DNA of 64,000 nucleotides from Lolliginicoccus suaedae (GTDB taxonomy: Bacteria; Actinomycetota; Actinomycetes; Mycobacteriales; Mycobacteriaceae), in the NCBI RefSeq assembly GCF_008312885.1, contig NZ_VSSO01000002.1, forward strand, positions 545,846-609,845. Reading direction: 5' to 3'. A model generated the notes under the pieces. The model did not search any database. It was given only the letters and a program-made list of their open reading frames with translations, and was not told the origin of the DNA. The position numbers were made by a program, and so were the translations under genes. Position 1 is the first letter of the stretch. Each line of letters begins with the position of its first letter. Positions 50,021 through 64,000 of this stretch are shown here, one piece after another.

Positions 50021-50467
50021 TTGATCGCGAAAAAAACCACCACCGCGCCCGAGGGCGTTTCCGTCGATATCGCGATACGTGCTGATATCCACTATCTCCC
50101 TGTCTTCCGGGAGATAGTCAAGTCTGTCGGCAAGGCCTCGGGGCTCGTCACGGATGACATCGATGATATGCAGCTCGCCGTGGATGAGATCGCCACCACT
50201 CTCATCGAGATCGCCGCAACGGGTTCCGAGGTGACGTGCTCCATCGAGGACAATGGGGCCGCGCTCTGCGTGACCATGACCGCGGAGTGCGCTGCAGCGC
50301 CGTTGCCGCGGACCAATAGCTTCCGCTGGCATGTGGTGCGCACCCTCGCTGATGACCTGGATTGGCACCAGGATGCTCACATGGAGAACCACGGGCGCCG
50401 CAACGGCAAGTGCCCGTCTACCACCGTCCAGGTCGTGAAGCGAAAGGCCTTACCTGTCGGTGAGTGA
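50021..50467 (+). CDS. RsbW-like anti-sigma factor (GHKL fold)
   Basis: A 148-residue GHKL/HATPase-type protein, expected to bind the sigma factor encoded next to it. The start is TTG at 50021 after GGGGGGAGA. The N-box region reads QLAVDEIATTLIE: Glu56 is present, but Thr60 replaces the Mg-binding Asn of RsbW/SpoIIAB kinases. The G1/G2 boxes are also weak (IEDNGA). It may bind sigma without phosphorylating a STAS partner. It overlaps sigF by 8 bases. Confidence 0.85.
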   Translation: MIAKKTTTAPEGVSVDIAIRADIHYLPVFREIVKSVGKASGLVTDDIDDMQLAVDEIATTLIEIAATGSEVTCSIEDNGAALCVTMTAECAAAPLPRTNSFRWHVVRTLADDLDWHQDAHMENHGRRNGKCPSTTVQVVKRKALPVGE

Positions 50468-51221
50468 CTCCGAGTATTCCGATGTCCCGCGGCTTATCGC
50501 CCGGTTGCGAAATATGGATAGCGATGAGGAGCAGGCGATAGCGCTCCGCGAGGAGGCGATCTCTCGCTGCGCCCCGCTGGCGGAGCACATCTCGCAGCGC
50601 TTCGCCCACCGCGGCGAGCCCATCGACGACCTCAGGCAGGTCGCACTGGTCGGATTGATCCATGCCGTCGATCGCTTCGACCCGTCCGTCGGTGCAGATT
50701 TCCTCGCGTTCGCCGTGCCGACCATCATGGGCGAGGTGCGGCGGCACTTCCGCGATACCCGGTGGGCCGTACGGATGCCGCGGCGCCTCCAGGAGGCCCA
50801 TCTCGCCATCGGCTCGGCCACCTCCGAGCTCGTGCAGCAGCTCGGGCGCGAGCCGACCCAGGCCGAGATCGCCGAGGCTCTCGATCTCACCGTCAGCGAG
50901 GTCGAGCAGGGGCAGCTCGCGGGCCGGGCATTCGTGGCCCAGTCCGCCGATGCGGGGAACGGACAGGTCGACGATGATCGGTCCCTTTTCGATACTGTCG
51001 GTTCCATCGATACCGACCTCGAGCAGTTCGAGGAACACGAGGCGCTGCAAGCGGCGCTCGAGGAGCTTCCCGCCCGGGAGCGCAGCATCATCATCATGCG
51101 CTTCTTCGGCAACAAGACGCAGGCCCAGATCGCCGAGCATCTCGGTATCTCGCAGATGCACGTGTCGCGGCTGCTCGCGCGCACCCTCGGCCAGATGCGC
51201 AGCCGCATGATCGGCGACTAG
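50460..51221 (+). CDS. sigF: SigF/SigB-family alternative sigma factor
   Basis: A 253-residue group 3 sigma factor. Region 2 has DLRQVALVGLIHAVDRFDP and FLAFAVPTIMGEVRRHFRD; region 3 has LGREPTQAEIAEAL; region 4 has LPARERSIIIMRFFGNKTQAQIAEHLGISQMHVSRLL, all typical of SigB/F/G. The start is GTG within the rsbW-like gene. This family reads GTTT-N15/16-GGGTA promoters, and several such sites lie in the next 10 kb. M. tuberculosis sigF is at another locus. Confidence 0.93.
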   Translation: MSDSEYSDVPRLIARLRNMDSDEEQAIALREEAISRCAPLAEHISQRFAHRGEPIDDLRQVALVGLIHAVDRFDPSVGADFLAFAVPTIMGEVRRHFRDTRWAVRMPRRLQEAHLAIGSATSELVQQLGREPTQAEIAEALDLTVSEVEQGQLAGRAFVAQSADAGNGQVDDDRSLFDTVGSIDTDLEQFEEHEALQAALEELPARERSIIIMRFFGNKTQAQIAEHLGISQMHVSRLLARTLGQMRSRMIGD

Positions 51222-51249
51222 CCCGGCCTGCCGGGCGCACCATCCCAAC

Positions 51250-51274
51250 GTTTCGCGGCCCCGTTAAGGGGTAT
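51250..51274 (+). promoter_or_regulatory. SigF-type promoter before methyltransferase-CDGSH operon
   Basis: GTTT (51250-51253), a 15-base spacer and GGGTAT (51269-51274) match the SigF/SigB consensus fully. It lies directly downstream of sigF and 42 bases before the methyltransferase start. Confidence 0.8.
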
Positions 51275-51315
51275 CCGGTACGTGATCCGATCACGCGCGA
51301 CACGGGAGGTGCAGG

Positions 51316-52047
51316 GTGACCCTGGAGATCGAAAGCGTTTCCCCGGGGCCCGCATGGCCCCAATCCGGCGTCGCCCTCGATGCCCAGCCGCCCAAGGTCT
51401 TTCGCCTTCCCGGGGTGTACCGCCCGCAGGAGGACAGCATGCTGCTCGCGCGCGAGTACCTGCGCAGCGGGCTAGCCGGGCAGGGGGAAGTGCTCGATGC
51501 GTGCTGCGGCACCGGCTACCTCTCGCTGATCGCGGCCTGGAGCGGCTGCCCCTCGGTGACCGCCGTGGATTCCTCGCTGCGGGCGGTACTGTCCGCCCGG
51601 GCGAACGCTGCGGTCCTCGGCGGTCGCATCGACGTCATCCATGGCGATCTCGCGGGGCTCGCGGGCAGACGGGCGTTCGACACTATCCTCGCCAATCCGC
51701 CCTACGTCCCCTGGTTCGACGAGGGCGCCGCGCGCCCCTGTACCAAATGGGACGCGGGCCGCGATGGTCGCAGTGTCATCGATGTGCTGTGCCTCGCGGC
51801 GCAGCGGCTGCTGCGGCCCGGAGGGACGCTGCTGATGGTGCACTCCGCGATCAGCGGCGTCGAGGAGACGCTCGATGCGCTCGGCCGCGAGGGGCTCGAC
51901 GCGTCGGTCTCCGCTCGCCAGCGCATTCCGTTCGGCCCAGTGATGCGCCGCCGCAGGGAGGCCCTGGTGCGAGCAGGCTATCTCGATCCGTGCCAGTCGC
52001 TCGAGGAGATCGTTGTTGTCCGGGCCAGCAAGCCGGCACGCCCATGA
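51316..52047 (+). CDS. HemK2/PrmC-like methyltransferase
   Basis: A 243-residue SAM-dependent methyltransferase. The lead-in GVYRPQEDSMLL and motif I DACCGTGYLS (61-70) precede the NPPYVPW motif (127-133), the signature of enzymes that methylate Gln or Asn side chains or N6-adenine. The true substrate is unknown; a separate prmC for release factors is expected elsewhere. GTG start after GGGAGG. The stop overlaps the CDGSH gene (ATGA). Confidence 0.85.
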   Translation: MTLEIESVSPGPAWPQSGVALDAQPPKVFRLPGVYRPQEDSMLLAREYLRSGLAGQGEVLDACCGTGYLSLIAAWSGCPSVTAVDSSLRAVLSARANAAVLGGRIDVIHGDLAGLAGRRAFDTILANPPYVPWFDEGAARPCTKWDAGRDGRSVIDVLCLAAQRLLRPGGTLLMVHSAISGVEETLDALGREGLDASVSARQRIPFGPVMRRRREALVRAGYLDPCQSLEEIVVVRASKPARP

Positions 52048-52259
52048 AGTGCCTGCGCTACACCGCCGATGGTCCGCTGCTGGTGCCCGGACCGGTGCGG
52101 ATCGAGCTGCCGGATGGAACCGTCGCCGAGTCCGACCGGGTCACGGTGGCGCTGTGCTTGTGCCGCAGGAGCCGGATCTTCCCGTTCTGCGACACGAGCC
52201 ACCGGAGGAAGCGCAAGCCCCGCACCGAACGGCGCCAGGACGGCACGGAAAAGGCCTAG
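52044..52259 (+). CDS. CDGSH iron-sulfur domain protein
   Basis: A 71-residue protein with one CDGSH-type motif, C38-x-C40 ... PFC49-DTS-H53, which holds a redox-active 2Fe-2S cluster with three Cys and one His. The N-terminal part is a short beta segment. It is coupled to the methyltransferase by an ATGA overlap and overlaps the convergent heme-oxygenase-fold gene by 4 bases at the stops. Confidence 0.9.
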   Translation: MKCLRYTADGPLLVPGPVRIELPDGTVAESDRVTVALCLCRRSRIFPFCDTSHRRKRKPRTERRQDGTEKA

Positions 52260-53296
52260 CGCAGGCTCGTGCGCCCTTCCTCCCAGGCGCCGAGCAGCCG
52301 CGCCGACAAGCGATCCTCCAGGAATTCGCTCGCTCCGATGCCGAAGCTGACCTCCTCGCGCATCGACGGATGGTCCCGCAGCAGCGCATCCACGACATCA
52401 GTGCGCATGAGCTGCTCGTGGACAGCATCCGCCTCGATGTGCTCGCGGTAGAAGTGAACGCACGCCTCGGGAGCACCGAGCCGGTCGAGAGCATCCGTCA
52501 TCACTTGCGCGCCCGGCCCGTTGGAGATCTCCGCCGCAGCGAACATGCCCACCAGCGCGCCGAGGCGCGAGCGGTGCAACCCGCACAATGACATGAAGTT
52601 CACTGTGGCCAACATCTCGGCGGGCACCTGGTCGAGGTAGGCGAGGTACCGCGAATCGAGGTCCGCGGCGTCCATCAGGCCGGCGAAGAGGCGGGAGTGC
52701 ATGCGCTCATGCTGCCCGCCGCCATACTCATCGAACTCCACGGCCACGAGCGCGGCCTTGGGCCGGCCCGTCAGGCGCGGGATCGCCCATGCCTGCGGGT
52801 CGGCTTCCTTCAACTGGTAGACGGAGCGCTGGATGAACAGCTCGCGCATCTGCTCCCACGTGCCAGTGTCGCGCAGGAACGTGCCCACGGTGCCGGTGCC
52901 CGGCGCGGGAGCGCACAGGTCCTCGAGCGACTGGACGGGATCGTCGAGGCGCACGTGCTCGCGCAGCACCGCGAGGAACAACTCCTCGAGCGCGGCGCGC
53001 ACGCCGAGCAGCGCGGGATGCCATTCCCATTCCGGATCCGTGCCGGCGAAGCCGTGGTAGTGCAGCTCGTAGCACACGGTGAGCGCGAGCTGCACGTCCT
53101 CGCCCAGCGCATCGCCGCTCCGCGCAAGTGCGGCCAGCTCGCGCAATCCATCGTCGGGAACATTCTCGGGCCGGCGGGCCAATGCCTCGATGAGTCGTGC
53201 GGAGACCGGGCCTCGAGACGGCGGCAGCGGCGGACTGGCCAGCGGCGAGGGCGTGGCGGGCGGATGCTCGGCAACGGCGGGCTGATGGGGGCTCAT
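52256..53296 (-). CDS. Iron-containing redox enzyme family protein (heme-oxygenase fold)
   Basis: A 346-residue helical protein of the heme-oxygenase/TenA/PqqC-like fold. Potential iron ligands are E and H in FDEYGGGQHERMHSRLF and in CVHFYREHIEADAVHEQ. The first 40 residues are Pro-rich and disordered. The ATG at 53296 gives MSPHQPAVAEH. An open frame continues to 53491 without similarity. It faces the CDGSH and methyltransferase genes, a trio often seen together in actinobacteria. Substrate unknown. Confidence 0.82.
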   Translation of the reverse strand: MSPHQPAVAEHPPATPSPLASPPLPPSRGPVSARLIEALARRPENVPDDGLRELAALARSGDALGEDVQLALTVCYELHYHGFAGTDPEWEWHPALLGVRAALEELFLAVLREHVRLDDPVQSLEDLCAPAPGTGTVGTFLRDTGTWEQMRELFIQRSVYQLKEADPQAWAIPRLTGRPKAALVAVEFDEYGGGQHERMHSRLFAGLMDAADLDSRYLAYLDQVPAEMLATVNFMSLCGLHRSRLGALVGMFAAAEISNGPGAQVMTDALDRLGAPEACVHFYREHIEADAVHEQLMRTDVVDALLRDHPSMREEVSFGIGASEFLEDRLSARLLGAWEEGRTSLR

Positions 53297-53305
53297 GGCG
53301 CGTGG

Positions 53306-53332
53306 GTTCCCCGGGGCCTTGGGAGGTAAACC
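53306..53332 (-). promoter_or_regulatory. Possible SigF-type promoter of the heme-oxygenase-fold gene
   Basis: On the minus strand GGTTT (53332-53328), a 16-base spacer and GGGAAC (53311-53306) match SigF with one mismatch in the -10. Transcription would start within a few bases of the ATG at 53296, giving a leaderless or near-leaderless mRNA. Confidence 0.45.
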
Positions 53333-53445
53333 TCGCCCTGCCCTGGCCGGGCGGCAGCATCCTTGCCCGAGGGACGGTGGCAGTGGCGAATATTCCGCGT
53401 TCCAGCGGGTAGCACACCAGGGAAGCCACAACGAGGAGGAGACCG

Positions 53446-54078
53446 ATGACCCAGCCCCAGGCGAACCAGCCCCGCGCGCTCGCTCTGGCATGCAGCCTCA
53501 AGCCCAGCAGCGAGAGCTCGAGCAGCGACCTGCTCGCCAGGCAGATCCTCGACGCGCTGGCGGAGCACGGCGTGCGCGGCTCGTCCGTGCGCGTGGCCGA
53601 CCATGTCATCCCGCCCGGGGTGGGGCACGAGATGAGCGACGACGACGCGTGGCCCGCCATCCGCGAGGAAGTGCTCGCCTCCGATGTGCTCCTGCTATGC
53701 ACGCCGATCTGGCTCGGGCATCCCTCGAGCCTGGCCCAGCGCGTGCTCGAGCGGCTCAACGCTGACCTGAGCGAGACCGGGGAGGACGGTCGGCCGATCA
53801 TGTTCGACAAGGTGGCGGTGGTGGGCATCGTCGGCAACGAGGATGGCGCGCACAAGGTGACGGCGGACCTGTTCCAGGGCCTCGCCGATCTCGGGTTCAC
53901 CGTTCCCGCGCACGGATCCGCCTACTGGGTGGGCGAGGCCAGGGGCGGCACGGACTACCAGGATCTCGACGAGATGCCAGCCGGGCTGGAGGGCAATATC
54001 AGCAATCTCGCGCGCAATGCCGCCCACCTGGCCGGGCTGCTCTCCCGCACCCCCTACCCGGCACCACCGAGCGACTAG
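53446..54078 (+). CDS. Flavodoxin-fold NADPH-dependent FMN reductase
   Basis: A 210-residue flavodoxin-like protein. The phosphate-binding loop is CSLKPSSESSSSD, and LLLCTPIWLGHPSSLAQRVLERL matches the FMN-reductase/WrbA-type flavin site. Good AGGAGGAG ribosome-binding site. A GGGTAG (53407-53412) upstream could be a SigF -10, but no clear -35 is seen. It may feed electrons to the iron proteins nearby; this is inference. Confidence 0.87.
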   Translation: MTQPQANQPRALALACSLKPSSESSSSDLLARQILDALAEHGVRGSSVRVADHVIPPGVGHEMSDDDAWPAIREEVLASDVLLLCTPIWLGHPSSLAQRVLERLNADLSETGEDGRPIMFDKVAVVGIVGNEDGAHKVTADLFQGLADLGFTVPAHGSAYWVGEARGGTDYQDLDEMPAGLEGNISNLARNAAHLAGLLSRTPYPAPPSD

Positions 54079-54114
54079 CCCCCCGGACCACCCCCACGAG
54101 AGGAGGCCACGATC

Positions 54115-54396
54115 ATGGCCGAGGATGAACGCGATCGCCAGGATGTGACACCGCCGCAGGATAGCGGCGACCCGGACCAGGTGGAGAGCGACCCGGCATC
54201 GCTCAATAGCGCCGAGTACGTCGACGAGGATCGCCTGGGCGAGAATCCGCTCACCGGGGCGATGGCCCCGCCGGATGACTGGTCGGAGGCCGATGCGTAT
54301 GGCACTACTCCCCGCGAGCAGAAGGAGGGGGAGACGCTCGACGACAGGCTCGAGCAGGAGGAGCCTGATATCCAGCCCGGCGAATCGCCGCCGTAG
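54115..54396 (+). CDS. DUF5709 small acidic protein
   Basis: A 93-residue acidic, probably disordered protein. The C-terminal GTTPREQKEGETLDDRLEQE is the DUF5709 signature. It starts 36 bases after the flavodoxin-fold gene with a GAGAGGAGG site, so both are likely one transcript. DUF5709 genes often occur near stress genes; function unknown. Confidence 0.8.
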   Translation: MAEDERDRQDVTPPQDSGDPDQVESDPASLNSAEYVDEDRLGENPLTGAMAPPDDWSEADAYGTTPREQKEGETLDDRLEQEEPDIQPGESPP

Positions 54397-54407
54397 CCGG
54401 ATCCGCA

Positions 54408-54445
54408 GCGAGGGCCCCGGGCACGATGGTGCCCGGGGCCCTCGC
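54408..54445. terminator. Bidirectional terminator
   Basis: A 17-bp perfect stem (54408-54424 with 54429-54445) with a 4-base loop lies between the DUF5709 gene and the convergent small membrane protein gene. Confidence 0.88.
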
Positions 54446-54465
54446 TTCCTGTTGCGGGAGGGCCG

Positions 54466-54762
54466 TCAGATGTCGAGCGGGCCCTTGCCCTCGGTGGATA
54501 GCTGGCGGTCCTTCGTCTCGAGATGCGTCCGGCGCTTGCGCCGCGCCTGCCAGAGCCAGGCAACAGCCGCCGCCGCGACGAGCGCGACGCAGCTCGCGCC
54601 GGCGATCCACGCCGGGCCGGAGGATCCCGTGCCCGCTGCGTAGAGGGTGAGGGCCAGCGCGACCACCGATAGCAGGATGAACAAGTACGCGAGCCGCGCG
54701 AGGGCTCGTCCAGCCTTGTCGGGGAACGACGCTTCCTGTCCAGGAATCTCGGGATCCTTCAT
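54466..54762 (-). CDS. Small two-helix membrane protein
   Basis: A 98-residue protein with two membrane helices (about residues 23-45 LARLAYLFILLSVVALALTL and 51-72) and a basic cytoplasmic tail (RRKRRTHLETKDRQ). The ATG at 54762 follows GGAGGCA. It is 74 bases downstream of the baeRF2 gene and may be its operon partner. Not recognised further. Confidence 0.75.
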   Translation of the reverse strand: MKDPEIPGQEASFPDKAGRALARLAYLFILLSVVALALTLYAAGTGSSGPAWIAGASCVALVAAAAVAWLWQARRKRRTHLETKDRQLSTEGKGPLDI

Positions 54763-54836
54763 GAGAATGCCTCCATTTCGAACGTCGGGGTTGTGGGCCA
54801 GCCGCCCACCGCGACGGTGGCTGATCCTGGAGCGGG

Positions 54837-55922
54837 CTAGCCCTGCTGCGCGTAGCGATCGCTCATCGCCAGCGCGGGCGCCCGCAGGATCGCGCCGATC
54901 CCGTCCTCGAACCTCACGTCCTCCTTGTCGCACACGATGATCTCCGCGCCCTGCTGGATGGACGTGGCGACGACGGCATCGGCCTCGCGGGTGTCGGTCT
55001 CGGGGGCGGGTGCCTCCTCGCGGTCGAGGCGGCGCGCCACGAGCAACGTGTCGACATTGCCCTGCTGCAGGTTCGCTGCGATGGTGTGGAGGCCATCGAC
55101 GGCATAGCCGGATGAGCGTCCCGACTCGATGCGGAACCGCTCGAGCGCCTCGGCGACCTTCTCGGACTGCCGCTTGCGCACGAGGTCGGTGATGGCGTCC
55201 TCGAGCTGGGCATCATCGGTGCCCTCGGCGCGGCCGCCGCCGGTCACTTGATGAGCGATTGCGCGCACATCGTCGGGCAGCAGTTGCTCGATGCTGGTGC
55301 GTGCCTGCACCTCGCCCGCGAGCACCAGGATCGACGGGCGGATCTCGCGCGCCGCCGCAGCGAGATGATCCGCGGTGTCCCGATGGTTCCGATCGATCAT
55401 CTCCTCCGTGCGTTCCTCGACGCGTGCCCAGCTGAACCGGTCACCGACGTTCGCCTTGTGCACGGGATGGCGCTCCTGGTCCTCCGAGTCCGAGGCGAGA
55501 GTATGGCCGTACTCATCGATGCAGCGCACGTCCACGCCGGTGCGATCGACCTCGGCGACCATGATGGTCTGCCGGGTGACACCATGCTCGAACAGCGGGA
55601 GCAGGTGCGGCATGAGCGAGAACCGCGCGTCGGGCTGGTCCGGGACGAAGGGAAGCTCCTCGTCGACGACGACGGAGTCCTCCGAGAACACCAGTGCCCG
55701 GCCCCGCCTGCCGATCGGCGGACGCCAGCGCTCGCTCAGCGACTGGATCCGATCGACGAGAGCATCCGGTGCTCCCTGCTCGCGCGCCCGCGCCGCGATG
55801 TCCCGCCAGCGCAGCTCGCGCGCCTTGCCCGCATCCTCGGTGTTGTGAGAATCATCGATATAGATCGATAGGAACGGCCCGTGGGCGTTCTCCAGGCGGT
55901 CCTTCAGTTCCTTGATGTCCAT
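54837..55922 (-). CDS. baeRF2/Balon-like ribosome hibernation candidate (Rv2629-like)
   Basis: A 361-residue protein of the bacterial archaeo-eukaryotic release-factor-like group 2. It aligns along its length with M. tuberculosis Rv2629 in my recall: GPFLSIYIDDSHNTEDA, GRRGRALVFSED, VAEVDRTGVDVRCIDEYG, HPVHKANVGDRFSW and DHLAAAAREIRPSILVLAGEVQART. Balon from Psychrobacter and its mycobacterial homologue sit in the ribosomal A site in dormancy. It starts directly after the stop of the Rieske-FAD gene (TGAATG), so both form an operon, with the small membrane protein last. Confidence 0.85.
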   Translation of the reverse strand: MDIKELKDRLENAHGPFLSIYIDDSHNTEDAGKARELRWRDIAARAREQGAPDALVDRIQSLSERWRPPIGRRGRALVFSEDSVVVDEELPFVPDQPDARFSLMPHLLPLFEHGVTRQTIMVAEVDRTGVDVRCIDEYGHTLASDSEDQERHPVHKANVGDRFSWARVEERTEEMIDRNHRDTADHLAAAAREIRPSILVLAGEVQARTSIEQLLPDDVRAIAHQVTGGGRAEGTDDAQLEDAITDLVRKRQSEKVAEALERFRIESGRSSGYAVDGLHTIAANLQQGNVDTLLVARRLDREEAPAPETDTREADAVVATSIQQGAEIIVCDKEDVRFEDGIGAILRAPALAMSDRYAQQG

Positions 55923-57443
55923 TCAGGATCGACTTCCTTTCCATTCCAGTGTTCGGCAGGGCCCGAGGCCCCGGGTCGCCGGACCCTCGATGAGGCTGCC
56001 ATCGGGCTCGAAGCGCGACCCATGCAACGGGCAGTCCCAGGTGCGCTCTGCCCTGTTCCAGGCGAGCAGGCCCTTCAGGTGCGGGCAGATCGCCGAGACC
56101 GTGCAGGTTGCCCCGTCCACGGTGCTCGTGGCGACCGGTCGCCACCGATGCCAGTGGACGTATCCCTCGCCCTCCGCCGGGGGCTCGCGCCGTGGTTGCG
56201 CTAGCCGTGGTAGTCCTGCCGCTAGCGCGGTGCCCACGTGCGCGTTCAGCGACAGGAAGCTGGGGAGCCTGCGCGTGATGAGCGCGCGCTGGCTATCGAA
56301 CAGCTCCATGCCGGGCGCGTCCGAGCCCGTGATGCGGGCAGCGAGGATTCGTCCCGCGGCGATTCCGTTGGTCATGCCCCATTTCGCGTAGCCGCTCGCC
56401 ATCAGGACCCCGGTGCTTCCCGCGAGCAAGCGGCCGACGAGCGGCAGCCCATCGATGCTGCGGTAGTCCTGGGCGGACCATTGGTGGGAAGGGGCCAGCC
56501 CGGGGAAATACCGGGCGGTCCAGTCGCGGAGGTCGCGCTCGCGCTCGCGCGTATCGCTCGCCCGGCCCGTGACATGACCATTCCCGCCGACGAGCAAGTG
56601 ATCCGGCGTGGAGCGCACCGACCGCGAGGGTGCGTTTTCCGGGGGGTCTATCGATACGTACATGCCTTCCGGCCGCAACGCATCCGGGGCGAGCGGGTAG
56701 GCGGCGAGGTAGGAGCGCTGCGGCTCGAGGGTGGCGAAGAATCCGCCCCGGTCGAGGATGGGGGTGCCCGTCGCGAGCACCACGCGGTCAGTGGCGATAT
56801 CGCCCTGCGAGGTGTGGACGGTCGTCGCGCCCGACATGGTGGCGCCGCGCGCGGTGATGCCCTCGAGGATGGTGCCGCCGAGCTCGATGATCGCCTCGGC
56901 GAGGGCCACAGAGAGCTCCACCGGGTCGCATTGCGCCTGGCGCTCGAGGCCGACGAACCCCGCGATGGGGAAGGGGAGGTAGTCCAGCGGGGCGCCGCGT
57001 CCCCAGCCCACGTCGAGCCCGGCGGCGCGGGCTGCCTCCGCCTCGCGGTGCAGGGCAGGGAGGGTGGCCTCGTCCTGGGCGATGGAGTACGCGGAGCGCT
57101 CCTGCGTCGCGACCCCGGCGCTGGCGCAGAACTGGCGCAACCATTCGAGCGCCGATTGGTTGGTCGCCACGTACTCGCGCGCCGCGTCCGCCCCGTGGGT
57201 ACGGGTGATCCTGCTGATCCGGTCACCCTGCAGGCACGTGGCTTTCGCGGTGGTCTTGCCGGTGGTGAGGCCCGCGACGCCATGCCGGTCGATGAGCGTC
57301 ACAACGATGCCCGCGCGCGCGCACTCGAGGCCGCACACGAGCCCGGTCAGGCCAGCGCCAATGATCAGCACCTCGGTGGCGGCGGGCGCGGAGATGGCGC
57401 GCGGGGCGGGGTGCGAGCGCGTGTCGAGCCAGAGTGATCCCAT
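55923..57443 (-). CDS. FAD-dependent oxidoreductase with C-terminal Rieske domain
   Basis: A 506-residue protein. Residues 1-390 are a DadA/GlpD-like FAD oxidoreductase with VLIIGAGLTGLVCGLECARA and the TTGKTTAKATCLQGDRISR segment. The C-terminal Rieske 2Fe-2S domain has C453-P-H455 and C471-P-L-H474. Such proteins move electrons from an amine or other substrate to the 2Fe-2S centre; the substrate is unknown. The ATG at 57443 has almost no leader after a possible SigF promoter. First gene of the operon with the baeRF2 protein. Confidence 0.88.
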   Translation of the reverse strand: MGSLWLDTRSHPAPRAISAPAATEVLIIGAGLTGLVCGLECARAGIVVTLIDRHGVAGLTTGKTTAKATCLQGDRISRITRTHGADAAREYVATNQSALEWLRQFCASAGVATQERSAYSIAQDEATLPALHREAEAARAAGLDVGWGRGAPLDYLPFPIAGFVGLERQAQCDPVELSVALAEAIIELGGTILEGITARGATMSGATTVHTSQGDIATDRVVLATGTPILDRGGFFATLEPQRSYLAAYPLAPDALRPEGMYVSIDPPENAPSRSVRSTPDHLLVGGNGHVTGRASDTRERERDLRDWTARYFPGLAPSHQWSAQDYRSIDGLPLVGRLLAGSTGVLMASGYAKWGMTNGIAAGRILAARITGSDAPGMELFDSQRALITRRLPSFLSLNAHVGTALAAGLPRLAQPRREPPAEGEGYVHWHRWRPVATSTVDGATCTVSAICPHLKGLLAWNRAERTWDCPLHGSRFEPDGSLIEGPATRGLGPCRTLEWKGSRS

Positions 57444-57452
57444 GGGGAGGGG

Positions 57453-57479
57453 CTACCACGCTGGAGGGGCTCCTAATCC
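57453..57479 (-). promoter_or_regulatory. Weak SigF-like promoter of the Rieske-baeRF2 operon
   Basis: On the minus strand GGATT (57479-57475), a 16-base spacer and TGGTAG (57458-57453). The -35 fits GGWWT; the -10 has two mismatches to GGGTAY. Start would be within about 10 bases of the ATG. Confidence 0.35.
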
Positions 57480-57552
57480 TCGCGGCACTGATCTCCTGTG
57501 CCTTCCCCTGCTCGACTAGCCCCCGCGAGCACCTCCCGTGACCAGACCGTGA

Positions 57553-57579
57553 GGTTTGGCGGCGGGCAGGAACGGGTAC
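57553..57579 (+). promoter_or_regulatory. SigF-type promoter of the glycosyltransferase gene
   Basis: GGTTT (57553-57557), a 16-base spacer and GGGTAC (57574-57579) are a full match to the mycobacterial SigF pattern GGWWT-N16-GGGTAY. The leader to the ATG at 57702 is about 115 bases. Confidence 0.82.
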
Positions 57580-57701
57580 CAGAGAATTCATGGCAGAACC
57601 CCACCGATCGCTCTCGGTACTGGCATGGCAGGTGCATGGCCCGTGGATGTCAGCCTTCGCGCAGGGCCCGCACCGCTCTCTCGTCCCAGGAAAGGCCTGA
57701 T

Positions 57702-58916
57702 ATGCGAATCGCGATGGTATCCGAGCACGCGAGCCCTCTCGCGACCCCCGGAACGGTGGACTCGGGCGGGCAGAGCGTTCATGTCGCGGCACTGTCCGCA
57801 GCGCTGGCGCGCCGCGGCAACGACGTGGTGGTCTATACGCGGCGCGATGCCGGGGAACTGCCCGAGCAGGTGTCGAGCGAGGACGGGTATCGAGTCGTCC
57901 ATGTGCCGGCGGGGCCGCCGAGCCGAATCCCGAAGGACGAGATCATGCCCCACATGACCGAGTTCGCCCGGTTCCTGCGGGCCGACTGGGTGGTGGACCC
58001 CCCGGATGTGGCTCATGCGCATTTCTGGATGTCGGGCATCGCCACGCAACTGGTCTCGCGCGTCCTCGGCACACCGACGGTCCAGACGTTTCATGCGCTG
58101 GGCTCGGTGAAGCGACGGTTCCAGGGCGAGGAGCACACGAGCTCGGACGGGCGCATCCGCACCGAGCGTGCCATCGCCCGGGCGGCTTCCCGGGTGATCG
58201 CGACGAGCTCGGAGGAGGCTTTCGAGCTCGCGCGGATGGGCGTGCCAGGGACACGGATCTCGCGCGTGCCGTGCGGTGTCGATCTGGATGCATTCCGCCC
58301 GGCGGCCCAGCAGCAGCGAGCCGGGGGTGGTCGCAAGCGCATCGTTTCGGTGGGCAGCCTGGTGCCGCGCAAGGGATTTGATATCGCTATCAGGGCGGTG
58401 GCGCACATCCCGTCGGCGGAGCTGGTCATCGCGGGCGGACCGGAGCCAGCGCGGCTCGAGCAGGACGCCGAGGCCCGGCGCTTGCGCTCGCTGGCACGCG
58501 AGCTCGGGGTGGAGGAGCGCGTGCGCTTGCTCGGCCAGGTGCCGCGCGAGGAGATGCCCGGTCTGTTGCAGTCAGCGGACGTGGTGCTGTGCACTCCGCG
58601 CCACGAACCATTCGGGATGGTGCCGCTCGAGGCGATGGCGTGCGGGGTGCCGGTGGTGGCCCATGCGGTCGGCGGCCTTCCCGATACCGTTGTCGATGGC
58701 GTCACCGGGGTGCTGGTGCCGCCCCAGCGGCCCCGCCTGCTGGTCAATGCGTTGTGCCACGTGCTTTCCCGGCCAGCGCTCGCGGAGGCCTGGGGAATCG
58801 CTGGCCGTGATCGCGCGGTGGCCCGCTATTCGTGGGACCAGATCGCGGCAGAGACGGAGCATGCCTACTTGCATGCAGTGCCCGCGCCCAGCGGTGCGCT
58901 CGGGCGCGGTTCCTGA
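57702..58916 (+). CDS. GT4-family glycosyltransferase
   Basis: A 404-residue retaining glycosyltransferase of the GT-B fold. The N-terminal domain has SGGQSVHVAALSAALARRGN and VAHAHFWMSGIA; the C-terminal donor domain has VGSLVPRKGFDIAIRAV and the E-x7-E motif in HEPFGMVPLEAMACG. The ATG at 57702 follows GGAAAGG; the frame is open to 57498 without similarity. Acceptor unknown. It is under a strong SigF-type promoter. Confidence 0.9.
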   Translation: MRIAMVSEHASPLATPGTVDSGGQSVHVAALSAALARRGNDVVVYTRRDAGELPEQVSSEDGYRVVHVPAGPPSRIPKDEIMPHMTEFARFLRADWVVDPPDVAHAHFWMSGIATQLVSRVLGTPTVQTFHALGSVKRRFQGEEHTSSDGRIRTERAIARAASRVIATSSEEAFELARMGVPGTRISRVPCGVDLDAFRPAAQQQRAGGGRKRIVSVGSLVPRKGFDIAIRAVAHIPSAELVIAGGPEPARLEQDAEARRLRSLARELGVEERVRLLGQVPREEMPGLLQSADVVLCTPRHEPFGMVPLEAMACGVPVVAHAVGGLPDTVVDGVTGVLVPPQRPRLLVNALCHVLSRPALAEAWGIAGRDRAVARYSWDQIAAETEHAYLHAVPAPSGALGRGS

Positions 58917-58929
58917 TCGATGCGGGCTG

Positions 58930-59067
58930 CTAGTCGTCGTCGGGGTGCTTGGCCGTAGGGTTTCCGGTGGGGCGCTCCTCGTCCACGGACGGGGCCTTGC
59001 CTGCTTTCCATCGGAATGCCCAGACCGCTATCAAAACCAGCAGCGCGGCGATCACGATAAGTTCCAT
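58930..59067 (-). CDS. Small single-helix membrane protein
   Basis: A 45-residue protein: one membrane helix (residues 2-19, ELIVIAALLVLIAVWAF) and a charged cytoplasmic tail ending HPDDD. Start at 59067, or 59115 with 16 more residues. No strong ribosome-binding site. Too short to place in a family; coding is likely from the clean helix-tail layout. Confidence 0.5.
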   Translation of the reverse strand: MELIVIAALLVLIAVWAFRWKAGKAPSVDEERPTGNPTAKHPDDD

Positions 59068-59276
59068 TTTGTTATTATATTTGTCCGTCGGCAAGGGTTC
59101 AATCAAATGTGACATTTCCGTACGCGAACTCAGGTTGAATATTGCATTAAGTATCCATTTACATTAAAGGCACGGTAAAGCTTGCTCAAAAGGCCAGCGG
59201 ATTGGTTGCGGCGCGCGTCACATTCGGGGAGTGTTGTTGGTGGGGATGAACTGCACTCAACGGGTGAGGAGTCGAT

Positions 59277-59672
59277 ATGGGTCCAATAGGGACCGGCCAC
59301 GATAAGGACGCGAGAGATCTCGCGCATCACCGGAGCGCCTCGCGGCAGCAGGTGCGCCTAGCGGTATTCCAGGGAGAGCTTGATGCCACGAGCCACGAGG
59401 AGCTAGCACGCACCCTGGACGAACTGCTGGAAACGCCAGAACCGATCATTGTTGATCTTTCCGGCTCGCGCTTCTGCAGCGCCTCCTGCATCGAGCTCAT
59501 AGCCCAGCGCGCCCAGCACGCGCAGGCGATGAGGATCGATTTCTCGGTCATGGCGCCACGGTTCATGGCGCGATGCTTCGAGCTGCACGAGCCGGCGCCA
59601 CGCGTCATACCCGGCCATCGGCCGCTCTCTGCCGGGGCCGAGAGGAAGTTCGTGCACATCTACACCGTCTAG
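59277..59672 (+). CDS. STAS-domain protein, anti-anti-sigma-like
   Basis: A 131-residue STAS protein. The phosphorylation loop reads DLSGSRFCSASCIELI: Ser70 sits at the usual phospho-Ser place, with Cys67 and Cys71 beside it and Cys100 further on. RsfA of M. tuberculosis, which frees SigF from UsfX, is redox-controlled through Cys, so a similar role is possible here. ATG after GAGGAG. A weak SigF-like site (GGTTG-N17-GGGGAG, 59204-59231) lies upstream. Confidence 0.8.
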   Translation: MGPIGTGHDKDARDLAHHRSASRQQVRLAVFQGELDATSHEELARTLDELLETPEPIIVDLSGSRFCSASCIELIAQRAQHAQAMRIDFSVMAPRFMARCFELHEPAPRVIPGHRPLSAGAERKFVHIYTV

Positions 59673-59680
59673 CCGGTACG

Positions 59681-59707
59681 GGTTTCGCCGGGCGCCGAGC
59701 AGGGTAT
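59681..59707 (+). promoter_or_regulatory. SigF-type promoter before GCS2 relic and membrane protein
   Basis: GGTTT (59681-59685), a 16-base spacer and GGGTAT (59702-59707) match the SigF consensus completely. It follows the STAS gene by 9 bases and would drive the region 59714-60575. Confidence 0.82.
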
Positions 59708-59804
59708 GCACGGCTAGCCGGACCAGGCGCGCCTCATTCCAGGTCCTCGGACTAGTCGAGAGGACCATGATGCTCAGGACCAATCCGCTCCCAGGCCCCG
59801 ATGA

Positions 59805-60248
59805 GGCCTCGAGCCCCCGCTCCTCGAGCCCGCATGGGCCGACGCCGCAGTATGGATGGCCGCCCGGCACGGCATCGACGGGCCCGCTATCGACCCCGTG
59901 GCACAAGCGCACGTACCCATCGCGAAGCGGATCGCCGACCTCCTCGCGACCATCACCGACGCCCTGTGCGAAGCCGGTGACTACCAGCAGGCCCGCACCA
60001 TGCTCGCCGGGTTGCAGCGACGCGGCACCGGGGCAGAGGTGCAGCGCCGCGCGGGATGCGCGGGGGTCGAGCACATCCTCGCGGTGACCGAGCAGGCAAC
60101 GGGGCAGCCCGACGGCCTCGGCAACGGTGGCCGCAGGATCGTGGCGCGCGCGAGGGAGGACCATATCGCGCACGGCGAACCAGAGGCTGGACAGGGGGAG
60201 CCGGGCGCGGCCCCAGGGCCTCCACTCCCAACGCAAGGAGGAGCACGA
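59805..60248 (+). pseudogene. C-terminal relic of a GCS2/YbdK carboxylate-amine ligase
   Basis: In the frame of base 59805 the translation contains AWADAAVWMAARHGIDGPAI, then a helical stretch and LAGLQRRGTGAEVQRRAG. This resembles the C-terminal part of glutamate-cysteine-ligase family 2 (YbdK) proteins. A stop lies just upstream at 59802-59804, and the catalytic N-terminal 250 or more residues are missing. The relic has lost its own stop and runs in frame into the next gene. An ATG at 59767 opens a different, low-complexity frame that is not credible. Confidence 0.6.
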
Positions 60249-60575
60249 ATGACCAACGATGTCGAGAAGCGCTTCCACGACCCGCGGGCCTTCCGCCGGG
60301 CGGCGGCCTACGTCCTCACTGTTGTTGCCGTGGCGCTCGCGCTCATGGGCGGGATCGTCATCTGGGGAACCCCCCGCGACTCGGAGCCTGCCGCCATGTT
60401 CCTGGCCCTCGGCCCATCAGCGATCATCCTCGTGGGTTTCCTCGGCGCGTTCGTCCAGGCCTACCGCACCTGGCGCAGAGGCGGCACCTGGCCGATCTGG
60501 CAGGGCGCCGGATGGTTCCTGCTGATGCTCTTCCTTGTCTATGCCGCTCTGTCGCTCACCGTGGTCGCCCGCTGA
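60249..60575 (+). CDS. Three-helix small membrane protein
   Basis: A 108-residue protein with three hydrophobic helices (about residues 14-36, 44-67 and 80-104). The ATG at 60249 is preceded by AAGGAGG at ideal distance, so it is translated independently, although the frame is open upstream through the GCS2 relic. Family not recognised. Probably under the SigF-type promoter at 59681. Confidence 0.75.
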   Translation: MTNDVEKRFHDPRAFRRAAAYVLTVVAVALALMGGIVIWGTPRDSEPAAMFLALGPSAIILVGFLGAFVQAYRTWRRGGTWPIWQGAGWFLLMLFLVYAALSLTVVAR

Positions 60576-60591
60576 GCTGTCCCGCCGAGCT

Positions 60592-60616
60592 GTTTAAGCA
60601 GCACCGGTCCGGGTAG
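60592..60616 (+). promoter_or_regulatory. SigF-type promoter before SRPBCC relic
   Basis: GTTT (60592-60595), a 15-base spacer and GGGTAG (60611-60616). One mismatch in the last base of the -10. It still points at a truncated gene at 60659. Confidence 0.7.
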
Positions 60617-60658
60617 GGGTCTAGCAACGATCACCCCCCCCGGACCGAGGCAGGCACC

Positions 60659-60775
60659 ATGGCATCGACCCTTCGCGCCAGCGCAGCCCCCACCGAAGTC
60701 TGGAACGTTCTGAACGACGCATGGCTCTACGCCGGATGGGTCGTGGTCTCATCCTGGATCCGGGACGTCGGGTCA
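60659..60775 (+). pseudogene. Truncated SRPBCC-family gene (N-terminal fragment)
   Basis: The first 37 residues (MASTLRASAAPTEVWNVLND, then AWLYAGWVV and SSWIRDV) match the start of SRPBCC/polyketide-cyclase-like proteins, which normally have about 140 residues. After that the frame reads antisense to the 3' end of the neighbouring gene and becomes Arg/Pro-rich noise. The promoter and start are kept, so the body was probably deleted when the next gene came to lie beside it. Confidence 0.6.
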
Positions 60776-61456
60776 TCACCGCCCCGTGACGGCCGCGCCC
60801 CGCGCGCTCCGGCTGCCCCGGTAGGCGCCCGCCCGCATCGTGGCGAGCCACGCCAGGGCCAGCGACCACCCCGCGCGGTCATGGAGCACCGGATCGAAGG
60901 ACCACTGCGCGTTCACGGGCATGGTGAGCAGCAGTGAGCCGATCGCACGGTACCCGTCGGTGCCACCGCTGCCGAGTACGAGCTCGAGGGGACGCTCGGC
61001 AACGGCGGCGGAGAGCGCTCCCCGGCGACAGGGGATCCTCCTGTCATTCGCGGCGCGGGCATGGAACCACGCGAGGCCGCTGCCGGGGGACCGGTAGGGC
61101 ATCAGGGTGCTGAAAGCCGGGCCGGTCCAGGAAACCGCTGGCACTGGCACCAGGCGGCCCAGCGGGCCCGCGCTCGCGATGCTGATGAGCAGCACGTCCC
61201 ACGGGCGGGGCTCGAGGAACCGCACGGAGATGCCCAGGGCATCCGGTAGGGATCCGCCCAGCCCGAGGCCCTTGGACAGGCGCACGTGGCAGGCAGAGGC
61301 CTCGAGCTCGACGGGAGCGTCAGCGCTTGGCCGGAACTGCCCGGTGAAGCATTCCCCGCGCGGGTGGAACAGTCGCTCGCCGCGCGCGCGTGGCGCAGCG
61401 CGCGCACCGAGGCACGACCATCGATCGACCTGGGCGCGCAGCGCATCGGTCCTCAT
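60776..61456 (-). CDS. Catalase-fold-related short protein
   Basis: A 226-residue protein. HPRGECFTGQF (31-41) and CHVRLSKGLGLGGSLPDALG (56-75) resemble the catalase segments around the distal His and the VRFS...D..G stretch, but the heme-ligand Tyr helix is not evident and the chain is far shorter than a catalase. Some relatives are called phosphodiesterases by automated annotation. ATG at 61456 after TAGGAGAT. It follows the SRPBCC gene by 14 bases in an operon from the large catalase. Function uncertain. Confidence 0.6.
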   Translation of the reverse strand: MRTDALRAQVDRWSCLGARAAPRARGERLFHPRGECFTGQFRPSADAPVELEASACHVRLSKGLGLGGSLPDALGISVRFLEPRPWDVLLISIASAGPLGRLVPVPAVSWTGPAFSTLMPYRSPGSGLAWFHARAANDRRIPCRRGALSAAVAERPLELVLGSGGTDGYRAIGSLLLTMPVNAQWSFDPVLHDRAGWSLALAWLATMRAGAYRGSRSARGAAVTGR

Positions 61457-61470
61457 GCGATCACGATCTC

Positions 61471-61932
61471 CTACGGGGCGGGCGGATCCACGTCGCCGCG
61501 CCAGCCCCCGGTCGCGTTGCCGCGCTCCTCGATGAACTCCTTGAAGCGCTTCATGTCGGCCTTGACTTGCATATCGACGATGTTGAGCGCATCGCCGATG
61601 TCCTCGGCGATCCCCTCGGGGTCGATATCCATCTGGGCGGTCACCCGGCACTTGCCCTCATCGAGGCGGTGGAACGTCACCACCCCGGCGTGCTTCGGCC
61701 CGTCGGTGGAGTGCCAGGCGACGCGTTCGTCCGGGTGCTGCTCGTCGACCACGGCGTTGAACTCGCGGGAGATGGGGCCGAAGCGGACGTGGAATCGCAG
61801 CCGGGTGTCGTCGAGCTGCTCCACCCGTTTCATGTGTTCCATGAACTGCGGGAATTCCTCGAACTGCGTCCACTGGTTGTAGGCCGCGGTGACCGGAACG
61901 TCGACGTCGATCGATTTCTCAACTGTTCCCAT
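61471..61932 (-). CDS. SRPBCC family protein (COQ10/cyclase-like)
   Basis: A 153-residue START-like protein: MGTVEKSIDVDVPVTAAYNQ, then QFEEFPQFMEHMKRV and a C-terminal long helix (ADMKRFKEFIEER). Such proteins bind hydrophobic ligands in a helix-grip cavity; ligand unknown. The ATG follows GAAAGGACAC. It lies 25 bases after the catalase stop, likely in the same transcript. Confidence 0.88.
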   Translation of the reverse strand: MGTVEKSIDVDVPVTAAYNQWTQFEEFPQFMEHMKRVEQLDDTRLRFHVRFGPISREFNAVVDEQHPDERVAWHSTDGPKHAGVVTFHRLDEGKCRVTAQMDIDPEGIAEDIGDALNIVDMQVKADMKRFKEFIEERGNATGGWRGDVDPPAP

Positions 61933-61957
61933 CTTAAGGGTGTCCTTTCTTTGTGAT

Positions 61958-64000
61958 TCATGCGGTCGTATGCGTGGTATCGCGACCCCATGCGCGGTGA
62001 TGCGCCACCGCGTCGAGGAAGGTGCTGATGAAGTCCTCGGGCAGCTCGCGCCCCTCGCGGTTCGTGACGATCACTCCCTCCTCGTCGGTCACGGGGACGT
62101 GGCTGGTCTCGGCACTGCTCATCCCGAGGCGCCGCAGCAGGTCCGCGGCCTCGCCGAACGCCGCGATCGGCTTCTGGTGAAGGAATGCCTCGAGCAGGAA
62201 ATGCTTCGCGGGACCACCGGGCTCGATGAGGCCAGCCACTGCGCCGCCCGGCACGACGATCGCGTCGTAGACCGCCGAGGGCGTGGAGTGCAGGCCATGC
62301 GTGGCGGTGATCCGTTCCCCGCTGGAGCCGCGCAGCCAGCCCTCCCGCGGACCCACGAGATCGAGGGTGGCGCCTGCGTCGGAGAGCGCCGAGGCCAGTG
62401 CGGTGATGCCCACATCGTCCACGTCATCGCACACCACGGCGGCGACGCGGCGAGTGGCAGCCGTGGGCGCGGTGTTGTCGAAGCCCGCGAGCGGAGGCAC
62501 CTGGCTCAGCGCGGCGGAAGCCCGATCATGCAGCTCGATCCCCTCCGGCCGCGGCGCGGGCAGGCCCAGCTTGTCCGCGACCTTCGACGCGAGGCCGGGA
62601 TCGATGCGCACGATGTGCTCGAGGACCCCCTCGCGAATGGTCGTCGAGCCGACCTTCGACAGCTCGAAGGAGAACGCATCGGCGATGTGGCCCTGCTCGA
62701 CCTCCTTCATGCTGTTCCAGAACAAGCGCGCCTGGCTGTAGTGATCGCGGAAGCTCTCGGGACGCATGCGCGCGGCCTCGCCCTCCACGCGCTGGGTGTA
62801 GTGGCGGAACACATCGTCGGGAGGCTGGCTCTGCGCCATGGTCATGGGGCAGCCGCCGCCGATGCTGTTGCTGGCGTAGCTGGTGGGATGCGTGTGGATG
62901 GTGTGCTGCCCGTAGCCGTCGCGCTGGTTGGTGTGCACCTCCGCGATGGGCCGGTTGATCGGCAGCTGCGAGAAGTTGGGGCCGCCGAGCCTGATGAGCT
63001 GGGTATCGAGGTAGCTGAAGTTGCGGGCCTGCAGCAAGGGATCGTTGGTGAAATCGATGCCCGGCACCACGTTGGCGGTGTGGAAAGCGATCTGCTCGGT
63101 CTCGGCGAAGAAGTTCTGCGGATTCCTGTCGAGCACCATGCGGCCCACCGGCTCCACGGGAACTACTTCCTCCGGGATGATCTTGGTGGGGTCCAGCAAA
63201 TCGATATCCAGTTCGTCGGCGCGGGACTCATCGACGAGCTGCACGCCTAGCTCGAACTCGGGATGCTCGCCAGCCTCGATCGCTTCCCAGAGGTCGCGCC
63301 GGTTGAAGTCGGGATCCGCCCCGGCAAGCCGCTGCACCTCGTCCCACACCAGGGAATGCGTGCCCAGCAGCGGGCGCCAGTGGAACTTCACGAACGTTCC
63401 CTTGCCCTCGCGGGTGACCAGCCGGAAGGTGTGCACGCCGAAGCCTTGCATCATGCGATAGCTGCGGGGCAGCGCCCGGTCCGACATCAGCCACATCACC
63501 ATGTGCAGCGACTCCGGGTGCAGCCAGATGAAATCCCAGAACGTGTCATGCGCCGACTGCGCCTGCGGGATCTCGCTCGCCGGCTCCGGCTTCACCGCAT
63601 GCACGAAATCGGGGAACTTGATCCCATCCTGGATGAAGAAGACCGGCATGTTGTTGCCCACGAGGTCGTAGTTGCCCTGCTTCGTATAGAACTTCGTGGC
63701 GAAGCCCCGCACGTCGCGCACGGTATCCGCGGAGCCCCGCGAGCCCGCGACGGTGGAGAAACGCACGAACACCGGGGTAGTGACGGACGGATCGGTGAGG
63801 AACTCCGCAGCGGTGTAGTCGCGCAAGCGTGAGTCATAGGGCCGGAAGTAGCCGTAGGCGCCAGCGCCGCGAGCATGCACGACGCGCTCGGGAATGCGCT
63901 CGTGATCGAAATGCGTGAGCTTCTCGCGCGCATGGAAATCCTCGAGCAGGGTGGGGCCGCGGGTCCCCGCGGTGAGGGAATCATCGGTGGTCTCGACGCG
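61958..64000 (-). CDS. katE: Large-subunit (clade 2) catalase, 5' end outside window
   Basis: Heme catalase breaking down hydrogen peroxide. 680 codons are visible; the first residues are beyond base 64000. Visible sites: distal His in ERVVHARGAGAYGYF, Asn in LVGNNMPVFFIQD, proximal heme Tyr in ARNFSYLDTQLIRLGG. The C-terminal 160 residues form a DJ-1/PfpI-like domain (VVCDDVDDVGITALASAL) whose nucleophile Cys is replaced (IAAFGEA), as in E. coli HPII. First visible gene of the operon with SRPBCC and catalase-fold-related genes. Confidence 0.96.
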   Translation of the reverse strand, partial: RVETTDDSLTAGTRGPTLLEDFHAREKLTHFDHERIPERVVHARGAGAYGYFRPYDSRLRDYTAAEFLTDPSVTTPVFVRFSTVAGSRGSADTVRDVRGFATKFYTKQGNYDLVGNNMPVFFIQDGIKFPDFVHAVKPEPASEIPQAQSAHDTFWDFIWLHPESLHMVMWLMSDRALPRSYRMMQGFGVHTFRLVTREGKGTFVKFHWRPLLGTHSLVWDEVQRLAGADPDFNRRDLWEAIEAGEHPEFELGVQLVDESRADELDIDLLDPTKIIPEEVVPVEPVGRMVLDRNPQNFFAETEQIAFHTANVVPGIDFTNDPLLQARNFSYLDTQLIRLGGPNFSQLPINRPIAEVHTNQRDGYGQHTIHTHPTSYASNSIGGGCPMTMAQSQPPDDVFRHYTQRVEGEAARMRPESFRDHYSQARLFWNSMKEVEQGHIADAFSFELSKVGSTTIREGVLEHIVRIDPGLASKVADKLGLPAPRPEGIELHDRASAALSQVPPLAGFDNTAPTAATRRVAAVVCDDVDDVGITALASALSDAGATLDLVGPREGWLRGSSGERITATHGLHSTPSAVYDAIVVPGGAVAGLIEPGGPAKHFLLEAFLHQKPIAAFGEAADLLRRLGMSSAETSHVPVTDEEGVIVTNREGRELPEDFISTFLDAVAHHRAWGRDTTHTTA

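Follow-up and report, generated by a model that had tools for sequence, protein, structure and literature searches.

A predicted SigF-type general-stress regulon beside its own anti-sigma/sigma pair in Lolliginicoccus suaedae

The stretch analysed here (the window, 64,000 nucleotides of Lolliginicoccus suaedae contig NZ_VSSO01000002.1, positions 545846-609845 of what is called C2 below) carries, from position 50021 onward, an rsbW-like anti-sigma gene that overlaps a sigma gene of the SigF type (sigF or sigF1, product SigF1), followed by a run of genes interspersed with promoter-like sites of the pattern GTTT-N15/16-GGGTA (hereafter, strict sites). Our analysis indicates that this block is very probably a general-stress regulon of the SigF type, adjoining its own anti-sigma/sigma pair. 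The motif clusters behind the sigma gene, is conserved at homologous positions in related genomes, and co-occurs with the sigma factor across genomes.

Clustering of SigF-type sites behind sigF

An initial annotation, made from the sequence letters, had reported four strict sites in short gaps pointing into genes. All four were found on the + strand, at 51250-51273, 57554-57578, 59682-59706, and 60592-60615; two had been placed one base low (57553 and 59681, where the motif can also be read as GGTTT) and the other two exactly. Their positions in gaps were likewise borne out, though two of the sites (59682 and 60592) now face gene remnants. The two weaker minus-strand sites in the same annotation both exist and are conserved, at 53307-53331 and 57454-57478, each 10 bases before an ATG.

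Equal motif density elsewhere had been proposed as a refutation, and the density proved far from equal: the 3.47 Mb source genome contains 18 strict sites, six of them in the 13 kb after sigF. Within 20 kb of the sigF start, these six compare with 0.07 expected from the rest of the genome (about 86-fold; Poisson P 1.5e-10). Two of the six lie past the window end, at window-equivalent positions 64121 (- strand, facing the catalase gene) and 64147 (+ strand, facing a gene for a 77-residue protein), and all six are in gaps, arguing against an artefact of coding sequence. Dinucleotide shuffles of the window gave a mean of 0.07 strict sites and never reached four (0/100), and 80 permuted motif pairs averaged 0.36 hits in the window.

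That the sites are chance matches, or echoes of codon bias in a high-GC genome, is scarcely credible. One of the 80 permuted pairs (TGTT/GAGGT) also scored four window hits, and among the 12 strict sites outside the block two look plainly unlike promoters and one faces no called gene, but the clustering, the homologous positions in relatives, the preservation of cores over spacers, and the control-level counts in genomes lacking the sigma (all detailed below) speak against chance; we reject chance and composition because of the clustering and the conservation. Eight of the outside sites are intergenic and point towards a called gene, a ninth coincides with the beginning of a hydrolase-like frame whose real start may be downstream, and three do not resemble promoters: the one facing no called gene, one taken to be antisense to 16S rRNA, and one inside an integrase-like frame (judged by eye). 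An identical 25-base match to the motif (source genome, C7:4684-4708) recurs across many genomes; it is presumably 16S rRNA antisense and as such a standing false positive for scans of this type. Elsewhere in the source genome, a divergent pair of strict sites (C1:598946-599021, or L026:8947-9022) separates a small cysteine-rich-looking gene from a membrane-protein gene and is kept in relative G001.

A matrix derived from published promoter cores gave a similar picture; its 50 cores, transcribed manually from Table 1 of PMC4694148, belong to M. smegmatis SigF targets marked as down in two studies and mostly lie less than 120 bases from the start. Scanning positions 50,000-66,500 returned 11 hit rows representing seven distinct sites, all in gaps; window positions 1-50,000 returned three, all within called genes, and none upstream of the 51 genes called there (0/51); and positions 66,500-79,154 returned none.

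Gene content of the block

The features within the window are listed below by position and strand. Comparisons are with three genomes listed as one genus with the source genome (G001, G002, and G003) and with G026. Gene-caller output was revised by comparison for the start of the haem-oxygenase-fold gene and for two short genes (STAS and the truncated SRPBCC).

50021..50467, +: rsbW-like anti-sigma gene (RsbW1), overlapping sigF; Pfam HATPase_c_2 27.2 bits against a cut-off of 27.4
50460..51221, +: SigF-type sigma gene (SigF1); NCBIfam SigB/SigF/SigG subfamily TIGR02980, 277.1 bits, cut-off 234.35
51250..51273, +: SigF-type promoter GTTT-N15-GGGTA of methyltransferase-CDGSH; strict site ahead of the gene in 4/4 blocks having it
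51316..52047, +: HemK2/MTQ2-family methyltransferase; TIGR00537, 95 bits, cut-off 87
52044..52259, +: CDGSH iron-sulfur protein, overlapping the methyltransferase gene; PF09360, 61.8 bits
52256..53296, -: haem-oxygenase-fold iron-containing redox enzyme; PF14518, 178.9 bits; start set 10 bases past the conserved -10 element
53307..53331, -: promoter GTTT-N16-GGGAA of the haem-oxygenase-fold gene; in 4/4 blocks with the gene
53388..53411, +: weak promoter-like GAAT-N15-GGGTA ahead of the FMN reductase gene; visual comparison with the versions in G001 (GAAT) and G003 (GATT)
53446..54078, +: NADPH-dependent FMN reductase-like gene; PF03358
54466..54762, -: small membrane protein, encoded at the end of the Rieske-Balon unit; weak holin-X match below cut-off; homologues in four other blocks
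54837..55922, -: Rv2629-type ribosome hibernation factor (Balon); PF18844, 111.9 bits; PDB 8v9k chain z, E 5.9e-47
55923..57443, -: FAD-dependent oxidoreductase with a Rieske domain, abutting Balon; PF01266, PF00355
57454..57478, -: SigF-like promoter GATT-N16-TGGTA of Rieske-Balon; its GATTA and GTGGTA unchanged across four genomes
57554..57578, +: SigF-type promoter GTTT-N16-GGGTA of the glycosyltransferase; strict directly upstream also in G002
57702..58916, +: GT4 glycosyltransferase; PF00534, PF13439
59277..59672, +: STAS-domain protein, candidate anti-sigma antagonist; PF13466, 37.7 bits, cut-off 29.2; 69% identical in G001 and G003
59682..59706, +: SigF-type promoter GTTT-N16-GGGTA, now before a gene remnant; before an intact carboxylate-amine ligase in G001 and G026
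59805..60182, +: carboxylate-amine ligase remnant, corresponding to residues 279-404 of 465 in the G001 protein
60249..60575, +: small membrane protein downstream of the ligase remnant; 61% identity to its G026 counterpart, which follows an intact ligase
60592..60615, +: SigF-type promoter GTTT-N15-GGGTA, now before a truncated gene; before an intact SRPBCC gene in G001, G003, and G026
60659..60793, +: truncated SRPBCC (lipid-transport fold) gene (SRPBCC2); 73% identical to the G001 protein (147 residues) over residues 4-48
61471..61932, -: SRPBCC protein gene (SRPBCC1), 25 bases behind the catalase gene; PF03364
61958..64000, -: large HPII-type catalase gene, running past the window end; PF00199

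SigF1 matches Pfam sigma regions 2, 3, and 4 and belongs to the SigB/SigF/SigG type; the NCBIfam SigF model (NF005514) is its best-scoring model at 323.4 bits, below the cut-off of 372. RsbW1 scores 20 bits against the NCBIfam RsbW model (cut-off 145 bits), and an rsbW-like gene precedes sigF at the same position in G001, G002, G003, and G026. By sigma protein, the nearest named kin are Hoyosella sp. YIM 151337 (66%) and Hoyosella rhizosphaerae (64%), in a search that may omit records of the source genome itself; the titles of the Hoyosella literature on sigma factors and stress point to nothing on this block.

Scored as the portion encoded inside the window, the catalase reaches 953.7 bits against the HPII model, under the cut-off of 1102. 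Its promoter (GTTT-N15-GGGTA) is found 121-144 bases past the window end, where the block continues with the gene for the 77-residue protein and then with genes for a short-chain dehydrogenase/reductase (SDR), ChaB, and DUF4383. The small membrane protein at 60249-60575 has no Pfam match. SRPBCC2 shows no match past residues 4-48 of its intact counterpart, and the FAD oxidoreductase found behind SRPBCC2 is unmatched in the source block; a slightly longer match to the ligase remnant contains a stop.

The STAS-domain protein, which sits between the glycosyltransferase and a SigF-type site, scores 30.4 against the NCBIfam antagonist model, under its cut-off of 53.45. It carries SAS where antagonists have their phosphorylated serine, and may be an unusual antagonist. 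STAS-like frames stand beside a GAF-ANTAR-like gene within the blocks of G026 (L153:8590-9731) and G002 (L151:6476-7478); no GAF-ANTAR-type gene was called in the source-genome block.

Conservation and turnover across five genomes

Strict sites fall within the rsbW-sigF blocks of all four relatives; the 20 kb after sigF hold 5 of the 19 genome-wide sites in G001, 5 of 16 in G003, 7 of 32 in G002, and 4 of 28 in G026 (where 11 of the 28 lie within 43 kb). A site directly behind the sigma gene is present in all five genomes. Counted over the blocks that have the gene concerned, strict sites precede a pair of ATP-grasp and S15-type peptidase genes in 4/4, the ligase or its remnant in 3/3, SRPBCC2 or its remnant in 4/4, and SRPBCC1 or the catalase-SRPBCC1 unit in 5/5. 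Promoters are found upstream of member genes and are conserved at orthologous genes. The gap of 42 bases between promoter and methyltransferase gene is the same in G001 and G003.

The preservation is concentrated in the promoter cores. In four-genome alignments, the haem-oxygenase-fold promoter (GTTTA-N14-GGGGAA) and the Rieske promoter (GATTA-N14-GTGGTA) each have 11/11 core columns and 0/14 spacer columns invariant; the latter reads GATT-N15-CGGTA, one base shorter, in G026. Since both promoters end 10-11 bases before the ATG, which suggests leaderless messages, the haem-oxygenase-fold and Rieske mRNAs are probably leaderless or nearly so.

Gene content has changed around these sites. ATP-grasp and S15-type peptidase genes follow sigF in G001, G002, G003, and G026 and are missing from the source block, with distant partial matches (28% and 29%) being all that the rest of the genome holds. 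Because G002 and G026 have the pair, its absence is most simply a loss; the methyltransferase promoter has been kept in the source genome all the same. In G001, all that is left of the alcohol dehydrogenase (ADH) gene coming next in G003 and G026 is a fragment of 28 residues. The FMN reductase gene is gone from G001, where its GAAT version of the promoter-like site is still present. Catalase is in the blocks of the source genome and G026 and was not found in those of G001, G002, and G003 (a comparison of the blocks themselves). Mid-block in G026, a polysaccharide-type cluster is inserted (L153:10823-20000) with its own divergent strict pair (19730, -; 19762, +).

This turnover raises the alternative that the clustering is a passive leftover of an ancestral stress locus whose units may now use other sigma factors. 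Two sites head remnants, so some promoters do persist without an intact gene. However, cores are kept before intact genes as spacers change, and the catalase-less blocks of G001, G002, and G003 still have a site before the SRPBCC gene that follows catalase elsewhere; we consider a passive leftover very unlikely.

Genomes with and without the sigma factor

We surveyed 61 genomes, with motif counts covering the 37 that belong to the family. The 25 with a SigF-type sigma contained 703 sites versus 308 reversed-motif controls (sites exceeding controls in 23/25), compared to 136 versus 134 in the 12 without (7/12). The site/control ratios differ between the two groups (Mann-Whitney P 0.002, a guide only since the genomes are related).

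The haem-oxygenase-fold gene, present in 34/61 genomes, allows a closer comparison. We sampled its surroundings in 20 of the 34 genomes, all in the family and outside the source group (two pairs share a genus). With the sigma, 48 GTTT-N15/16-GGG[TA]A sites were found in about 237 kb and were present in 13/16 genomes; without it, about 56 kb from four genomes contained none (0/4), although all four keep the methyltransferase, CDGSH, and haem-oxygenase-fold genes together. Of the 30 genomes holding both, at least 15 have this gene no more than 20 kb from that for a SigF-type sigma, against 0.48 expected (a lower bound because contigs end; four of the 15 are the source group).

Around the SigF-type sigma genes of 80 named loci, the motif occurs 140 times in 1.52 Mb, compared with a mean of 10.5 for 80 permuted pairs (a mean that includes the motif itself) and 47 for the next best pair; permuted pairs replaced the reversed-motif control at these loci, which scored no hit at any locus and was set aside. 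Some loci of Rhodococcus, Mycolicibacterium, Mycolicibacter, Prescottella, and Amycolatopsis have homologues of the Rieske, glycosyltransferase, ADH, or SRPBCC genes, with sites, beside sigF; the order of these genes is shuffled, and they occur both before and after sigF. Many other sigF loci in the set, in which related species are over-represented, show none of these homologues.

Several observations weigh against a regulon kept beside, and read by, its own sigma factor. Upstream of rsbW-sigF1, no SigF-type site was found in the source genome, G001, G002, or G003 (matrix score ≥9, 400 bases); G026 alone has one, a weaker GGTT-N15-GGGTA 121 bases upstream. In G002 the motif is outnumbered by its reversed control (32 versus 37), the two tie in G015 (11 versus 11), and in G026 the motif is barely ahead (28 versus 25). 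No site lies close to the haem-oxygenase-fold gene in three of the 16 sigma-carrying genomes. Of the seven block sites in G002, one falls within the glycosyltransferase gene, and two of the four in G026 come from the inserted polysaccharide cluster. The glycosyltransferase promoter is the least conserved among the named targets, being about 1 kb upstream in G026 (strict), GTAT-N16-GGGTA in G001, and degenerate in G003. Lastly, the source genome has a second RsbW-SigF pair (44% identity), flanked by the same promoter type.

Which sigma factor reads the promoters

The sigma of this second pair (SigF2; C2:35694-36395) is encoded 560 kb from SigF1 on the same contig. It has sigma regions 2, 3, and 4 and scores 223.5 bits against TIGR02980, slightly below the cut-off of 234.35. 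The pair spans L157:5449-6803 (C2, about 35.4-36.8 kb). One base past the SigF2 stop codon is a strict site directed at a DUF6131 gene, likewise in G001 and G003, and GAAT-N16-GGGTA (read by eye) lies ahead of rsbW2 in the source genome and the same two relatives.

If SigF2 read the block's promoters mainly or equally, the neighbour would not be their controller. In favour of such a role are its sigma regions, its own RsbW, and the SigF-type sites around it; Streptomyces SigB homologues shared nearly all of 24 tested promoters (PMC8346170). The block, however, adjoins SigF1 in 5/5 genomes and was not found around SigF2 in three of them. In a sigma-factor tree, SigF2 groups separately from SigF1 and the SigF1 homologues with full support, though the homologues were chosen as SigF1 matches and the fork joining the SigF1 group to other lineages is unsupported. 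Reading mainly or equally by SigF2 is thus unlikely in our view, and proximity and co-inheritance favour SigF1 as the main reader.

The initial annotation had proposed one stress regulon controlled by the neighbouring sigma. The regulon itself is sustained by the clustering, the five-genome footprint, the sigma-less genomes, and the M. smegmatis expression data discussed below; control by the neighbour is likely but less firm, a second SigF-type sigma lying on the same contig and such paralogues sharing promoters in Streptomyces. As to its membership, the named targets (methyltransferase-CDGSH, the haem-oxygenase-fold gene, Rieske oxidoreductase-Balon, and the glycosyltransferase) hold, and the small membrane protein gene is retained as well, given its homologue behind the intact carboxylate-amine ligase in G026.

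Balon and ribosome hibernation

Both its Pfam family and the sequence of the solved structure identify the product of 54837-55922 as Balon, matching Rv2629 Balon (8v9k) described in PMC10901736; the NCBIfam equivalog model gives 297.5, under its cut-off of 320. The Rieske and Balon genes are separated by 0-1 base or overlap by four bases in 5/5 blocks, forming one unit in all five genomes. Balon genes have been reported in stress-response operons with neighbours that include alternative sigma-70 factors, and Rv2629 and Msmeg1130 are induced by hypoxia (PMC10901736). The arrangement here differs from that account, whose text does not contain 'SigF', in that the Balon gene forms a unit with that of a Rieske oxidoreductase, preceded by a SigF-like promoter. 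The Balon gene named there is MSMEG_1130; Table 1 of PMC4694148 has MSMEG_1131 (GTGT-N16-GGGTA) and not MSMEG_1130. Among the titles listed in our literature search, none concerned a link between Balon and SigF, and one hibernation-factor paper concerned sigma-B.

To look beyond the source group, we assembled 31 Balon loci, nine from one set and 22 from the best 30 loci (60/301 family genomes had a match), with gene starts extrapolated from the matches. The strict pattern was absent at the first nine; the matrix scan then found sites. Over all 31, a hit scoring ≥12 lies at most 300 bases upstream in the correct sense at 19, compared with antisense hits at 4/31, a mean of 0.3 in mononucleotide shuffles (most 2), and 0.5 in other 330-base stretches of the same loci. 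By genus label, sites were found in g23 (8/8), g29 (8/11), and g26, g27, and g46 (1/1 each), and not in g22 (0/3), g38 (0/2), or g9, g14, g42, and g45 (0/1 each). Since 16/19 come from two genera, the number of independent cases is nearer five. The cores are mostly GTGT-N15/16-GGGTA or GTTT-N15/16-GGGCA, weaker than the strict motif, with one strict site. The loci of other genera with SigF-type sites are among L188 and L199-L220.

The conserved SigF-like promoter in the source group, together with the site directly before Balon in other genera, leads us to lean, by a modest degree, towards Balon ribosome hibernation being an established arm of the family's SigF general-stress response. In the source group, the block may also behave as a neighbourhood that holds together with promoters outlasting genes.

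Precedents in other actinobacteria

The layout is not new, because M. smegmatis has it with expression data. Table 1 of PMC4694148 lists 28 of the 39 loci numbered MSMEG_1766-1804, the last of them sigF, as falling in a sigF deletion, and MSMEG_1766-1806 is given as the largest induced cluster in PMC11303327. Shared features are the rsbW-sigF pair, GTTT-N15/16-GGGTA or GGGAA promoters, and a long SigF-dependent block adjoining sigF. The falling genes include a methylase (GTTT-N15-GGGTA), with a further gene in its unit, and MSMEG_1773, whose GTTT-N15-GGGAA is 11 bases before the start; several SigF promoters in Table 1 are 8-11 bases before the start. The comparison with MSMEG_1771-1773 is by table entries. 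Catalases and a carboxylate-amine ligase also belong to the M. smegmatis regulon but are elsewhere in the genome. In contrast to the source genome, the M. smegmatis block is upstream of sigF by locus number, is larger, and includes RsbW3 and ChaB, and a SigF-dependent promoter feeds sigF itself (PMC4694148).

Autoregulation of sigF1, which is known in mycobacteria, was considered and set aside as not visible (site absent in 4/5 genomes, the weaker one in G026). The usfX-sigF genes of M. tuberculosis form an anti-sigma/sigma pair of the same kind (PMC7693655). Streptomyces coelicolor resembles the source genome in having several SigB/F-type sigma factors with very similar promoter elements, and differs in having nine homologues versus the two found here (PMC8346170).

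Proposed operation and implications

We infer that the block works through a partner switch and serves in oxidative stress or in the stress of stationary phase. SigF1 would then be freed from RsbW1 by a STAS-type antagonist, perhaps the product of 59277, and RNA polymerase with SigF1 would start at the GTTT-N15/16-GGGTA or GGGAA promoters of about seven adjoining transcription units. These would be methyltransferase-CDGSH; the haem-oxygenase-fold enzyme; Rieske oxidoreductase-Balon-membrane protein; the glycosyltransferase; the membrane protein behind the remnant ligase; catalase-SRPBCC; and, past the window end, the run of small protein-SDR-ChaB. About eight further promoters elsewhere in the genome may also be used by SigF1.

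These data provide a compact, gene-by-gene predicted SigF regulon outside Mycobacterium, the promoters of which can be tested singly. The sigma-less genomes serve as natural deletions, in which the same genes stay and the motif goes, and a link between a Balon-type hibernation factor and a general stress sigma is now directly testable.

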